Source: a bacterium A37T11
GTDB taxonomy: Bacteria; Bacteroidota; Bacteroidia; Sphingobacteriales; Sphingobacteriaceae
Assembly: GCA_900109895.1 (NCBI GenBank)
Contig: FOBR01000002.1
Location: forward strand, 1 to 64,000
Length of the DNA: 64,000 nucleotides
Direction of reading: 5' to 3'
Shown here: piece by piece, positions 6,865 through 27,712 of the stretch
Numbering within the stretch: position 1 is the first letter of the stretch
Layout: each line of letters opens with the position of its first letter
The notes under the pieces: model-generated
Seen by the model: only the letters and a program-made list of their open reading frames with translations
Databases searched by the model: none
What the model was told of the DNA's origin: nothing
Position numbers and translations under genes: made by a program

Positions 6865-6914
6865 TTTTTAACACGGTTTGATAAAAATGGTGTTTACCCG
6901 GCGCCTAACTCAGG

Positions 6915-6955
6915 AAAAAACACTAAGTGAAACCTTGGCTCACTTAGTGTTTTTT
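6915..6955 (+). terminator. Strong rho-independent terminator after proS
   Basis: AAAAAACACTAAGTGA (6915-6930) pairs perfectly with the 16 bases at 6940-6955 around a 9-nt loop; the right arm ends in six T. Because the left arm begins with six A it could also act on the opposite strand, though both neighbours are on the plus strand. Confidence 0.9.
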
Positions 6956-7012
6956 CGTAGCCGCAGAGGTTAAATGGCATTTTATGATTGCTAAAATGAT
7001 GAGTTATTGGTG

Positions 7013-7869: not shown

Positions 7870-8841
7870 TTACAAAGACGGTGTAATTACGATGCTTTTG
7901 AATTCAATAGGGCCATGGTCTCCCTGAATATAAATTGGCCCAGGTTCGCCTTCGTTACTATCGAGGGCGCCACCGGTAATGCCCGGAATCTCTTGGTTAC
8001 AAATGATCGTTTTTCCATTGGCTACGATGGTCACCATTCTTCCGACCAGCGTGATATCAAAGGTTTGCCATTGTCCCGGACCGATAAGCGCCATTTCACT
8101 GGGTACCAAAAAACCATATACGCCGCCAAAAAGGTGGCTGGATGGATGGTTGGTCTTGGGATTATCAATAATTTGGGTTTCGTAGCGGCCCCGGAGATAA
8201 ACGCCGCTGTTGCTGTTCTGATCATATTTAAACGCCACATGCAATTTAAAATCATTGAAGGTTTTTTCAGAGATCAGATTCGCTCCAGAGTAAGGGCTAG
8301 TGAGGATTCCGTTTTTTACGACCCATTGGTTTTCCTTTCCGATAGCTTTCCAACCCGTCAGGTCCTTACCGTTAAACAAGTTAATGGATTTTCCCCAGGA
8401 AGGTTTTTTGTTTCGTGTGAGATTAGGTGCCCGCACACCCGTAAACGGATGCGTCCGACCATCGCTGGTTTGGATGGTTCCGGTGATCCCGCGGGATGAC
8501 AGCGTACCCTCCAATACCAGGTCCCGGTCTTCTGATTCCCATTGTGGTGGTATAGCAAAAGAAAACTTGTTATTATGGAACGCTACTTTGGATATAGGCC
8601 TGGCGCTTCCGCCAGTTCCTACAAAGCGCCCAACAAGCGTTTTAAATCCGGATAATTCTACTTCCAGCCAAGATGGTGCTTTTTTTCCATTTTCGTCCAT
8701 GTTGAGGTCCCATCGCCCAATAAGGGAAGCACCATCGTCAGCAGCGGCTTGTACTGGCGCCACTTGCGCGTTCATAAAGGTTGAAGATACAAGGCAAAGG
8801 GCTATGCTACCCAGTAAACCTAATATATATTTTTTATCCAT
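7870..8841 (-). CDS. Secreted DUF1080 protein (3-keto-disaccharide hydrolase fold)
   Basis: 323 residues with a signal peptide (first ~25 residues, cleaved near MNA-Q). Residues about 145-323 are a DUF1080 domain: SINLFNGKDLTGWKAIGKEN at its start, then WVVKNGILTS, FKYDQNSNSGVYLRGRYETQ, and GPIEFKSIVI at the end. DUF1080 is a concanavalin-like lectin/glucanase fold and several members hydrolyse 3-keto-glycosides. Residues about 38-140 are an additional beta-rich domain (LIGRWDLNMDENGKKAPSWL to HPFTGVRAP) seen in a subset of the family. Likely periplasmic or outer-membrane-associated. It stands alone on the minus strand; the plus-strand frames opposite it are shadows. Confidence 0.85.
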   Translation of the reverse strand: MDKKYILGLLGSIALCLVSSTFMNAQVAPVQAAADDGASLIGRWDLNMDENGKKAPSWLEVELSGFKTLVGRFVGTGGSARPISKVAFHNNKFSFAIPPQWESEDRDLVLEGTLSSRGITGTIQTSDGRTHPFTGVRAPNLTRNKKPSWGKSINLFNGKDLTGWKAIGKENQWVVKNGILTSPYSGANLISEKTFNDFKLHVAFKYDQNSNSGVYLRGRYETQIIDNPKTNHPSSHLFGGVYGFLVPSEMALIGPGQWQTFDITLVGRMVTIVANGKTIICNQEIPGITGGALDSNEGEPGPIYIQGDHGPIEFKSIVITPSL

Positions 8842-9023: not shown

Positions 9024-9366
9024 ATGTTAATTTTTACTGCAGAACTATTAAAATATGCCCAAAAAGGGGAAAAGACTGGCTGGAATTATATTGAAGTACC
9101 ATTGGGATTTGCAGAAAAGATAAAACCGGGTAATCGAAAAGGTTTTCGTGTTAGGGGTAGTTTGGATACAATACCAGTGTCTGGGTTGTCATTAGTCCCT
9201 GTAGGAGAAGGTAATTTAATTCTTCCCCTCAGGATTGGTCTATGTAAGCAGCATCAATAGCGCCAAGACTATTGAAACCCGGAGCAAACGTATCGCACAA
9301 ACTGTCGAAGCTATGGACATAGGACTTGATTTTGGGGCTATGATCCGCCGAAGTCGAATAAAATGA
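9024..9366 (+). pseudogene. DUF1905-OmdA (YdeI-like) gene with internal deletion and frameshift
   Basis: The first frame gives a DUF1905 domain: MLIFTAELLKYAQKGEKTGW, EVPLGFAEKIKPGNRKGFRV, then PVGEGNLILPLRIGL, and stops at 9258-9260. About 20 nt before the stop another frame opens and reads SSINSAKTIETRSKRIAQTV, EAMDIGLDFGAMIRR, ending with TGA at 9364-9366. That second segment is the C-terminus of the OmdA (YdeI/OmpD-associated) domain that normally follows DUF1905 in one polypeptide. The middle of the protein, roughly 50-100 residues, is missing and the two ends are out of frame, so the gene is dead by deletion. A TATATTTG box lies at 8993-9000. In intact relatives the function is only loosely linked to stress or bacteriocin protection. 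Confidence 0.75.
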
Positions 9367-24245: not shown

Positions 24246-26225
24246 ATGAAGAAACATGTTTTAATAAAAAGTACCTACAGGGGGCTTTTGATAGTGATGC
24301 TTGGCGCCTTTGCGCTCCCTGCCGTGTGCCAATATCACCCAAAAGAAATTTTTAACCCAGATTTTTATCGCCATCCTGGCAGTGAATGGAGGAGCGCCAG
24401 CGGCAAACCTGGAGCTAATTACTGGCAAAACCGAGCGGACTATATCGTCAAAGCCTCCTTTGATACAGCTTCTCAGGCCTTGAAAGGGAATGTAGAAATT
24501 CAATACAGCAACCAAAGCCCGGAAGTCTTAGATGAACTATGGCTTCAGCTAGATCAAAACACCAATAGGTTAGATTCACGAGGGAACCGGCAAACCAACC
24601 CCGATGCCCAACCAGACGACGCATTGGGATATATCATCCGGGAGGTTCGTCTGGAACAAGATGGAAAATGGATTAAGATCCCCTATTCAATAGAAGATAC
24701 CCGGATGCAGATCCGGTTTGCTAAACGTCCTGTCAAAGCAGGTCAGCTGGTTAAGTTATCGATAGATTACGCCTACACTTTACAAAAGAGTGGCGGCGGC
24801 GGGCGTTCTGGCTATATGGATACCAAAAACGGCAAACTCTATGAGTTTTCTTACTGGTATCCGCGGATGTGTGTCTATGATGATTACTATGGGTGGAATA
24901 CCCTACCTTTTATAGGCTCAGGAGAAATGTATCTGGACTATGGTCATATAGATTATTCGGTCACCGTTCCCGCCGGGCTATTGGTAGTCGGTACCGGAAA
25001 GCTGGTCAATGAAAGCGAGGTACTAAATGCCAGGTTACTTGGACGTCTTGTTAATGCCCGTAGTTCTGATGCCACTGTCATGGTCAGGCCAGCCAGGGAA
25101 CTTAACCAACCTGTCACTAAAAAATCTACAGGTCTGGTTACCTGGCATTTTCAGATGGATAGTACGAGAGACGTGGCATGGGCACTATCTAAAGCGTTTA
25201 TCTGGGATGCCGCCAGGATTAATCTTCCCGAGGGGAAAACGGCCCTGGCCCAATCCGTTTACCCGATCGAGTCTACCGCAGGCAGCATAGCGTGGCCCAG
25301 GTCTACCCAGTTTCTTAAAGCCTCTATTGAGCATTATTCTGAAAAATGGTTCCCTTTTCCGTATGACGTAGCGACCAGTGTGGCTGGTCCGGTAGGGGGC
25401 ATGGAATTTCCCGGCCTCGCCTTTAATGGCTGGAAAGCTGATCCGTATATTATGTTTTTGCTGGACTCTCATGAGATTGGCCATACCTGGTTCCCGATGA
25501 TCGTTGGCTCAGACGAACGCAGGTATCCTTTTATGGATGAGGGCTTCAATACTTTTATCAATATTCTTGCCCATGAAACCTTCAATAAAGGGGAGTTTGC
25601 CCCCAAGCGTGATGGAGAGTATGCTCCTGGCAAAGGCTATCCCGCCGATGAAATTGTCGAAGTAATCAAAAGCAGTGGCGAAGACAATACGCTCATGACC
25701 CCACCTGATGCCATGAAACGGGAATATGTCCATCCATTGGCTTATTTTAAATCAGCTTTGGGCCTTACCCTCCTTCGGGATGTAATCCTTGGTCCGGACA
25801 AATTTGACTATGCTTTCAGGCAATATATCCATAACTGGGCCTTTAAGCACCCCCGTCCGGATGATTTTTTCAGGTCGATGGAAAATGGGGCAGGGGAAGA
25901 CCTCAGTTGGTTTTGGCAGGGCTGGTATTATCACAATTGGCAACTAGACCAGGCCGTAGTGGCATTAGATTATGAAAAGGGTGATCCGGCAAAGGGTGCC
26001 ATTATTAAGGTAGAAAATAAACAGCAAATGGTGATGCCCATTATTGTAGCTGTTAAGGAAACCAATGGTCAGGAACACTGTTTTACGGTCCCAGTGGATG
26101 TATGGCAAAAAGGCCCTACTGCTACATTTCATGTCAATAGTACGACCAGAGTCGTATCAGTGATCCTGGATCCTGAACATCAGCTACCAGACATGGACAG
26201 GTCTAATAATGAGTATAAACCGTAA
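24246..26225 (+). CDS. Exported M1-family metallopeptidase (copy 1)
   Basis: 659 residues with a signal peptide (cleaved near AVC-Q). The N-terminal beta domain begins with the block [20 protein letters not shown] shared with the second copy at 48657. The M1 zinc site is complete: H409-E-I-G-H413, then Glu432 exactly 18 residues after the last His; GGMEFPG is the substrate-amine-binding GxME motif. Likely a periplasmic or surface aminopeptidase. Last gene of the DUF4197-ABC operon, 32 bp after the permease. About half of its residues appear shared with copy 2 by eye. Confidence 0.92.
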   Translation: MKKHVLIKSTYRGLLIVMLGAFALPAVCQYHPKEIFNPDFYRHPGSEWRSASGKPGANYWQNRADYIVKASFDTASQALKGNVEIQYSNQSPEVLDELWLQLDQNTNRLDSRGNRQTNPDAQPDDALGYIIREVRLEQDGKWIKIPYSIEDTRMQIRFAKRPVKAGQLVKLSIDYAYTLQKSGGGGRSGYMDTKNGKLYEFSYWYPRMCVYDDYYGWNTLPFIGSGEMYLDYGHIDYSVTVPAGLLVVGTGKLVNESEVLNARLLGRLVNARSSDATVMVRPARELNQPVTKKSTGLVTWHFQMDSTRDVAWALSKAFIWDAARINLPEGKTALAQSVYPIESTAGSIAWPRSTQFLKASIEHYSEKWFPFPYDVATSVAGPVGGMEFPGLAFNGWKADPYIMFLLDSHEIGHTWFPMIVGSDERRYPFMDEGFNTFINILAHETFNKGEFAPKRDGEYAPGKGYPADEIVEVIKSSGEDNTLMTPPDAMKREYVHPLAYFKSALGLTLLRDVILGPDKFDYAFRQYIHNWAFKHPRPDDFFRSMENGAGEDLSWFWQGWYYHNWQLDQAVVALDYEKGDPAKGAIIKVENKQQMVMPIIVAVKETNGQEHCFTVPVDVWQKGPTATFHVNSTTRVVSVILDPEHQLPDMDRSNNEYKP

Positions 26226-26330
26226 AAAAAATCGGGTTATCCTTCCGCATATGGGAACTCTCACTGTGCCCCGATTAGATCGGGGCTCCGTTTCGTTCCC
26301 TAGGCCGCGTCCGGATAACCCAATTTTTTA
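26224..26330. terminator. Large nested hairpin, element A (bidirectional terminator)
   Basis: Outer arms 26226-26242 and 26313-26329 pair with one mismatch and begin with A and end with T runs. Nested inside are GGGAAC (26253-26258) with GTTCCC (26295-26300) and GCCCCGAT (26268-26275) with ATCGGGGC (26279-26286). It lies at the 3' end of the M1 gene and the convergent sugar dehydrogenase gene, and is far larger than an ordinary terminator. Confidence 0.75.
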
Positions 26331-26344
26331 TTGTTCGGATTATA

Positions 26345-26449
26345 AAAAAAATTCCGATTGGCACAGGAGAGGCATGGGAACAATAGGCGGAGTGACCAAG
26401 GCTCGTAGCCGGCTTGTTGCCGCAGCGAGTGGTCAAGCGGAATTTTTTT
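26345..26449. terminator. Large nested hairpin, element B
   Basis: AAAAAAATTCCG (26345-26356) pairs perfectly with 26438-26449. Inside, TGACC (26393-26397) pairs with GGTCA (26431-26435), GCTCG (26401-26405) with CGAGT (26426-26430), and CGGC (26410-26413) with GCCG (26419-26422). Same plan as element A but different sequence; GC-rich core, A/T flanks usable as terminator on either strand. Confidence 0.75.
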
Positions 26450-26458
26450 AAAGAGCCA

Positions 26459-27712
26459 TTATTTTTTAGCGATCTTATACAACTGACCTTCGTCAGTAAC
26501 GGTATACAAAGCACCATCCTTGCCCTGAGTAATAGCCCGGAAACGGTGATGCAAGTCGGTTAGTAAGCGCTCTTCACCCACCACCTTGTCATCCTTTATG
26601 ACCAATCGATCAATATGCATGGTCTTTAAATTAGCGATGAATAAGTTGCCCTTCCATTCCGGAATCACATCGCTATCGTAGAAGGTGATGCCCGATGGTG
26701 CAATGACCGGATCCCAATAATAAATAGGTTGTTCCATGCCACCCTTAACCTGAATTGCATCACCCACCTTTTTACCACTATATTCAATGCCGTAGGTGAT
26801 CACAGGCCAGCCATAATTTTTACCCGGACGGATGATATTGATCTCGTCTCCACCCCGCGGGCCAAATTCAGCCTCCCAGAGCTCACCTGTAGTAGGATTC
26901 CAAGCTAGCCCCTCAGGGCTGCGCAAGCCCAGGGCATATACTTCAGGACGTGCATCCGACGTATGCGCAAAAGGACCGTTGGGCACTGGCTTACCATCTT
27001 TGGTGATATGAACAATCTTGCCAAGTGCAGAGTTCAATTGTTGTGCCTGTATGCGAATCTCGGGGTCAGAACGCTCACCCGTGCTGACAAATAAATTTCC
27101 TTCTTTATCAAAGACAATCCTGGAACCAAACTGTATAGAACCTTTATAAGCAGGGGTTGCCCGGTATATAACTGTCGGATTTTCTATTTTAGTTTCATCA
27201 TCAGATAATTTTCCTTTAGCTACAGCTAAGACCAGTAAACCATCTGCCGTTCTTTCGGAGTAATCCCAAAAAACAACGCGATTGTAGGCAAAATCAGGAT
27301 CGGCAATTACATCCAGCAAACCGCCCTGACCGTCGGCAACCACCGCTGGCAAGCCGGTGATCGTTTTATCTGATTTCCCGTCTGCTGTAACAAGCCTCAG
27401 GGTACCTTCCTCCTTCTGAGAGATCAGGAAACGGCCGTCAGGTAGCAAGGCAATTCCCCAGGGGCGCTTCAGCACACTGTTTACCAAAGTCACTGAAAAA
27501 GGCGTAGTTGTTTTTGCACTGGGACCACGCGTTTGCCCGGCAAAAGCAGGTTTGTAATCACTGTTAGGAGCTTCGGTTTCTACAGGAGCGTTTTTGGTAG
27601 TATCCGAGTCAGCCGGTGCACTGGCAGAAGTGCCGGTACTGTGGTTGCAGGCAGATAGAATAACTATAAAAGTTGTTCCAAAAGCCATTAGGTTTTTTTT
27701 GTAAGTTGCCAT
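26459..27712 (-). CDS. PQQ-dependent sugar dehydrogenase-like lipoprotein (GSDH family)
   Basis: 417 residues. A lipoprotein signal ends ILSAC (Cys about 22). A Thr/Ala/Ser-rich linker follows, then a six-bladed propeller of the soluble glucose/sorbosone dehydrogenase family: RPWGIALLPDGRFLISQKEE, VADGQGGLLDVIADPDF, FVSTGERSDPEIRIQAQQLN, LGLRSPEGLAWNP, EFGPRGGDEINIIRPGKNYG and APSGITFYDSD. Family members oxidise sugars with PQQ. No PQQ synthesis genes are visible nearby. Confidence 0.9.
   Translation of the reverse strand: MATYKKNLMAFGTTFIVILSACNHSTGTSASAPADSDTTKNAPVETEAPNSDYKPAFAGQTRGPSAKTTTPFSVTLVNSVLKRPWGIALLPDGRFLISQKEEGTLRLVTADGKSDKTITGLPAVVADGQGGLLDVIADPDFAYNRVVFWDYSERTADGLLVLAVAKGKLSDDETKIENPTVIYRATPAYKGSIQFGSRIVFDKEGNLFVSTGERSDPEIRIQAQQLNSALGKIVHITKDGKPVPNGPFAHTSDARPEVYALGLRSPEGLAWNPTTGELWEAEFGPRGGDEINIIRPGKNYGWPVITYGIEYSGKKVGDAIQVKGGMEQPIYYWDPVIAPSGITFYDSDVIPEWKGNLFIANLKTMHIDRLVIKDDKVVGEERLLTDLHHRFRAITQGKDGALYTVTDEGQLYKIAKK

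Follow-up and report, generated by a model that had tools for sequence, protein, structure and literature searches.

An inverted pair of nested hairpins from a dispersed, probably REPIN/BIME-like repeat family in a Sphingobacteriaceae genome

Introduction

REP, BIME and REPIN sequences are described as dispersed intergenic palindromes that often form inverted doublets and lie mostly between tandem or convergent genes (PMC3733652, PMC3116915), and bacterial MITEs as non-coding elements of 70-300 bp with inverted arms (PMC3733652). Judged from the listings returned by a literature search, there is no account of the nested-hairpin family reported here. Word searches of two further papers returned no palindrome, hairpin or inverted repeat (PMC5350276) and no result (PMC2267715).

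The locus in question lies in the window (the whole stretch of DNA analysed, 64,000 nt of a draft genome of bacterium A37T11), where two adjacent hairpins, elements A and B, separate two convergent genes (Table 1). The family to which they belong resembles REP, BIME and REPIN sequences in consisting of dispersed intergenic palindromes, with inverted A(-)B(+) doublets at the window and on contigs C15 and C24, but each hairpin measures about 100 bp and has four nested stems, compared with 20-40 bp for REP, and is accompanied by neither a GTAG or CGTC tag nor a Y1/RAYT gene. As with the bacterial MITEs RUP and NEMIS, the family is non-coding, falls in the 70-300 bp range and has inverted arms; unlike in MITEs, variation is greatest at the ends and conservation greatest in the centre, and the outer arms are not common to the copies. 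The A-run/T-run hairpin between convergent genes recalls an intrinsic bidirectional terminator, from which the present elements differ in being much larger, in being multi-copy with homologous cores, and in occurring also in operon-like gaps. It is probable that A and B represent an inverted pair from a dispersed, non-coding, REPIN/BIME-like family of about 50 nested-hairpin repeats that has spread as DNA.

Table 1. Features of the window, with strand and the evidence for each.
Feature	Position	Strand	Evidence
Element A, nested hairpin	26226..26329	-	Arms, DNA fold, partial C14 copy, R2 match
Core of A	26246..26309	-	R2 alignment; inner hairpin of GCCCCGAT...ATCGGGGC type
Element B, nested hairpin	26345..26449	+	Arms, DNA fold
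Core of B, 60 nt, multi-copy	26368..26427	+	DNA matches, models R1 and R2
Third, decayed family member	about 6881..6985	+	R2 16.2 bits, E 0.084; arms by eye
Peptidase_M1-domain gene (context only)	24246..26225	+	ORF and Pfam
GSDH gene, glucose/sorbosone dehydrogenase family (context only)	26459..27712	-	ORF and Pfam

Results

Two nested hairpins between convergent genes

The original prediction of two adjacent nested hairpins between convergent genes is borne out by the arms, the gene calls and the folds. Each hairpin spans about 104 nt, with outer arms of 17 nt in A (26226-26242 and 26313-26329; 94% complementary, 70 nt apart) and of 16 nt in B (26345-26360 and 26434-26449; 94% complementary, 73 nt apart). 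When the 271 nt from 26200 to 26470 are folded as RNA, the z-score is -4.2 on the plus strand and -5.1 on the minus strand, and folding of the single elements as DNA gives -5.5 for A and -4.4 for B; in each of these cases none of 200 shuffled sequences folded as well.

The two hairpins had been thought to share a plan but not a sequence, and this holds as long as one strand only is compared; on the minus strand, A appears as a divergent relative of B. Element A matches R2, a broader covariance model of the family (see below), weakly and on the minus strand (17.1 bits, E 0.049), and its relative on contig C14, which was absent from the training set, matches R2 on the minus strand with 41.7 bits. 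On the strength of these two alignments, the best reading of A is that of a diverged relative of B in inverted orientation.

Copies in the genome

At the level of DNA matches within its own genome, B is found at seven places, itself included, and A at its own site and as one partial copy on C14. The 60-nt core has a mean column identity of 92% across the seven B copies, and a covariance model of this core (R1) finds 31 matches in the genome at E<=1. The R2 model, trained on 32 R1 matches of which two are A-type, finds 50 matches at E<=0.1; these copy numbers are to be read in the light of a 60-contig draft assembly (97.5% complete) and of rough model E-values. A simple inverted-repeat finder and two fold-based scans failed to tell the family from the background; one fold-based scan, which yielded one additional member at C12:196 kb, returned 206 hairpins where shuffled intergenic sequence gave 194.

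The third member in the window (Table 1) folds with a z-score of -4.3 and sits between two plus-strand ORFs. Its inner hairpin, AAAAAACACTAAGTG...CACTTAGTGTTTTTT, is unusually strong.

Anatomy and covariation

The plan common to the copies comprises, from the outside inwards, a variable outer stem, a GCGGC stem, a GGGAAAA/TTTTCCC stem, a short GCG stem and an inner hairpin. The last of these comes in several forms distinguished by eye, namely the GTGAGACCGAGGCTCAC type, the long GGAGACCCCGG...GGCTCC type and the GCCCCGAT...ATCGGGGC type, or is deleted; window B carries a short form of the first, and window A carries the third, which recurs at C17:204095 and C14:60610. Conservation is highest at the centre of the element and lowest at the ends, which are not sharply defined.

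The covariance analysis that the original prediction had in mind reveals matched change both in the core and in the outer arms. Among 29 distinct core sequences, 93.1% of the cells pair and 14 of 18 pairs have changed on both sides, in an alignment that, being model-fitted, leans towards structure; with the partner slid by 1-3 columns as a control, 32-52% of the cells pair and only 1-3 pairs have changed on both sides. For the outer arms, 19 representatives hand-picked from 35 copies have a mean pairing energy of -25.5 kcal/mol with their own partner, compared with -10.2 kcal/mol when arms are swapped between copies. The own partner is the best in 15 of the 19, the exceptions (L037, L039, L054 and C24A) each having one other copy whose arm pairs better, and in all eight copies of a subset with dissimilar arms. 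Permutation of the arms reaches the observed sum in 0 of 20,000 trials, in the 19-copy set and in the eight-copy subset alike. The outer arms thus vary between copies and stay matched within each. A chance origin of the hairpins is rejected on the strength of the fold shuffles, the slid controls of the core and the arm permutations.

Genomic context and strand

Of the 50 copies, 42 could be assigned to a gap flanked by ORFs of 100 aa or more (genes other than those named from Pfam being plain ORFs), of which 24 lie between tandem, 12 between convergent and 6 between divergent genes; the other eight comprise five with a short flank, one with an open side, one in a far gap and one that overlaps the start of a predicted ORF. 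Compared with 308 background gaps of 100-1200 nt (179 tandem, 43 convergent and 86 divergent), convergent sites are over-represented among the copies (12/42 versus 43/308) and divergent sites under-represented (6/42 versus 86/308). Two copies occupy operon-like gaps. One (C14:60.6 kb) separates trpA from the preceding PALP-family gene, named trpB on account of that position, with flanks of 60 and 38 nt; the other separates an AcrB-type pump gene from that of its outer-membrane partner, with flanks of 36 and 60 nt.

These facts bear on the reading of the hairpins as structured 3' RNAs or bidirectional terminators, kept because the RNA ends or protects the neighbouring transcripts. The position of A and B between convergent genes, their T runs of 8 and 7 nt, the enrichment of copies between convergent genes and the strong covariation are all as such a role would have it, but only a minority of the 35 copies measured have a T run of at least 5 nt, the core is far above the size that a terminator requires, and there is no Rfam match. 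Moreover, the copies in tandem gaps (n=24) show no strand preference, 12 being oriented with the genes and 12 against them, and this neutrality, together with the copies in the trpB-trpA and pump/outer-membrane partner gaps, indicates that the elements are no general terminators. The structured 3' RNA that had been suggested thus finds no support as a general role, and as an explanation of the family this alternative is unlikely. Locally, A and B could act as terminators, to judge by their T runs. Taken together, the genomic context favours a DNA repeat whose presence at gene ends is tolerated over a general terminator or a strand-specific RNA.

A known RNA was likewise rejected, as the Rfam 15 covariance models give no match at E<=1 in 26000-26700 and only a tRNA reaches its gathering score across the whole window.

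Composite A-B pairs

The arrangement of A on the minus strand followed by B on the plus strand is found in the window, where the cores are separated by 58 nt, and with nearly equal spacing at two further sites, C15:130.9 kb (54 nt) and C24:131.6 kb (60 nt). The site at C42:31.9 kb differs in that its A-like core, 54 nt ahead of B, is in plus orientation. By eye, B is preceded by outer-arm remnants only at C17:159 kb and C17:152 kb, and the remaining three B-type copies (two on C20, one on C52) have no A within the preceding 190 nt. Further close pairs on C47, C27 and C11 are in direct orientation, as is that on C42, and many copies are single. The C42 pair (C42:31864-32037; L044) looks as if its A-like core, which is on the minus strand in the window, C15 and C24 pairs, had been flipped between the arms.

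The family is thus multi-copy, intergenic, covarying, often paired and strand-neutral. Of the roles originally offered, that of repeated palindromic elements or remnants of small mobile elements is the one supported, by 31 to 50 dispersed copies, covarying stems and a recurring composite pair, and a single-copy sequence devoid of covariation is not what was found.

Distribution among relatives

Of the two places in which the original prediction would have copies sought, the same genome yielded them in number (31 matches with R1, 50 with R2), and the relatives gave no R1 match at E<=0.001 in 40 genomes and only weak or coding-sequence matches with R2. In 38 relatives, the latter comprise two single weak matches (G007 and G033; E 0.03 and 0.06); in 300 genomes of the bacterial family, a set that overlaps the other sets of relatives and in which 18 candidates were scored per genome, there is a single match (G060; E 0.0034), which by eye lies in ABC-transporter coding sequence. 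The repeat family is not convincingly found in the relatives searched. As the searched sets contain no second genome of its own genus, restriction to the species and restriction to the genus are indistinguishable. Exact scans with two core patterns returned nothing from genome_contigs or viral_contigs, collections that may not include the genome under study or its closest neighbours, and in which diverged families would escape such patterns.

The locus itself was compared across 30 loci with orthologues of the M1 gene, the downstream DNA being viewed for seven of them, including its own, and the rest as reading frames. In G078 and G015, whose M1 genes are the closest orthologues (70% identity each), other sequence follows, so that the locus offers no comparable empty site. 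In one relative (G014; L160), an unrelated palindrome, GTAGGGGCGCAAAATTTTGCGCCCCTAC, which looks GTAG-tagged and REP-like, directly follows the related M1 gene.

Association with nuclease genes

Several copies lie beside Rpn-family (PF12784, PF04754) or AAA-ATPase_like (PF09820, some with PDDEXK_9) genes. A match to PF12784, PF04754 or PF09820 is found within 2 kb of 14 of the 50 elements (0.98 expected) and 9 of 39 clusters (1.24 expected), where the expected values assume uniform placement, ignoring that the elements sit in gaps, and the association had been noticed before it was tested. For PF09820 alone, the count of clusters is 4 of 39 compared with 0.83 expected within 2 kb, and 2 compared with 0.62 within 1 kb (p 0.13). 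The Rpn cases belong to one subfamily, that with CTCAGCC arms, for which an Rpn-like gene is found within 2 kb of 10 of the 12 copies (the neighbouring ORF being called Rpn-like by eye only in two of the 10), compared with 5 of 308 random tiles. In this subfamily (L067:8270-10450, L069:7680-9230 and L083:6838-7020), the similarity extends past the hairpin into the flank of the Rpn-type gene. An AAA-ATPase_like case is found at L071:6694-8058 (C19:106.7-108.1 kb), where a truncated gene is bracketed by a hairpin copy on each side, 43 nt from one end and 35 nt from the other; the two copies are near-identical and in direct orientation, and the whole resembles a cassette.

These numbers and the bracketed gene would agree with PD-(D/E)XK nucleases (Rpn, or AAA-ATPase_like with PDDEXK_9) moving or rearranging the hairpins, which would be ends or targets of these enzymes. 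On the other side, the association was first seen and then tested, the similarity running into the Rpn flank may reflect hitch-hiking on gene duplication, and only one of nine B-type copies lies near such a gene. In addition, PMC10327210 argues against rpn genes being transposons, states that no terminal inverted repeats can be identified for them and considers a transposase function unlikely. We therefore regard this reading as very improbable, and hardly less so the related proposal that the family consists of mobile repeats moved by these PD-(D/E)XK nucleases, rather than by Y1, through recognition of the single-stranded or cruciform hairpin.

Two arrangements near Rpn genes were observed besides. 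At L081, two copies of a different hairpin (TTCTGTCCGGGCTGG...CCAGCCCGGACAGAA; 8366-8443 and 9075-9152) flank a partly duplicated Rpn gene, and at L086:11459-11523 a hairpin copy and tandem fragments of Rpn genes have as their neighbour a perfect palindrome, AT-rich and with arms of 30 nt.

Discussion

Dispersal of the family as DNA, and hence its mobility, is what we infer from these observations. In the explanation that we favour, that of a REPIN/BIME-like repeat, the unit recognised would be the folded single strand or a cruciform, and what moves may often be the A-B pair, in line with proposals for REPINs and BIMEs. A Y1 transposase as mover was sought and not found, the Y1/RAYT domain (PF01797) having no match in the genome (a 97.5% complete draft) by a search that detects it in 5 of 14 controls, and among the families searched (PF01797, PF04754, PF12784 and PF09820, other transposase families lying outside the search) no parent transposon of the MITE kind was found. 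Copies would persist at gene ends, where harm is small, and the long T runs of A and B may have been co-opted as a two-way terminator for the convergent genes.

A REP proper was rejected, as the genome has no PF01797 gene and neither GTAG nor CGTC exceeds its shuffled count in the 60 nt either side of 51 cores; the lifestyle of the family nevertheless looks REP-like.

Repeated insertion of a small core into the loops of pre-existing terminator hairpins, the outer arms being host sequence, would suit the conserved cores, the widely different arms and the one adjacent hairpin with A-type arms that lacks a core (C17:159 kb), but is very improbable given that several subfamilies have common arm motifs (a TTAAAAATC...TG-CC pattern, by eye), that similar arms at unrelated sites point to common descent with matched changes, and that core-less hairpins are equally explicable as deletions, of which examples affecting the inner hairpin are seen.

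As a REPIN/BIME-like family, the repeats would be REPIN-like elements in a genome that yielded no RAYT, each a stack of nested stems with outermost arms that vary and yet remain matched. Such matching calls for selection acting on the folded strand, or else for a mode of copying that corrects one arm from the other. Were the nuclease proposal true, the 'recombination-promoting' nucleases would gain a natural DNA substrate; and should the association with Rpn and AAA-ATPase_like genes extend to other genomes, it would provide these proteins, whose mobility and targets lack an explanation, with a DNA substrate open to testing.
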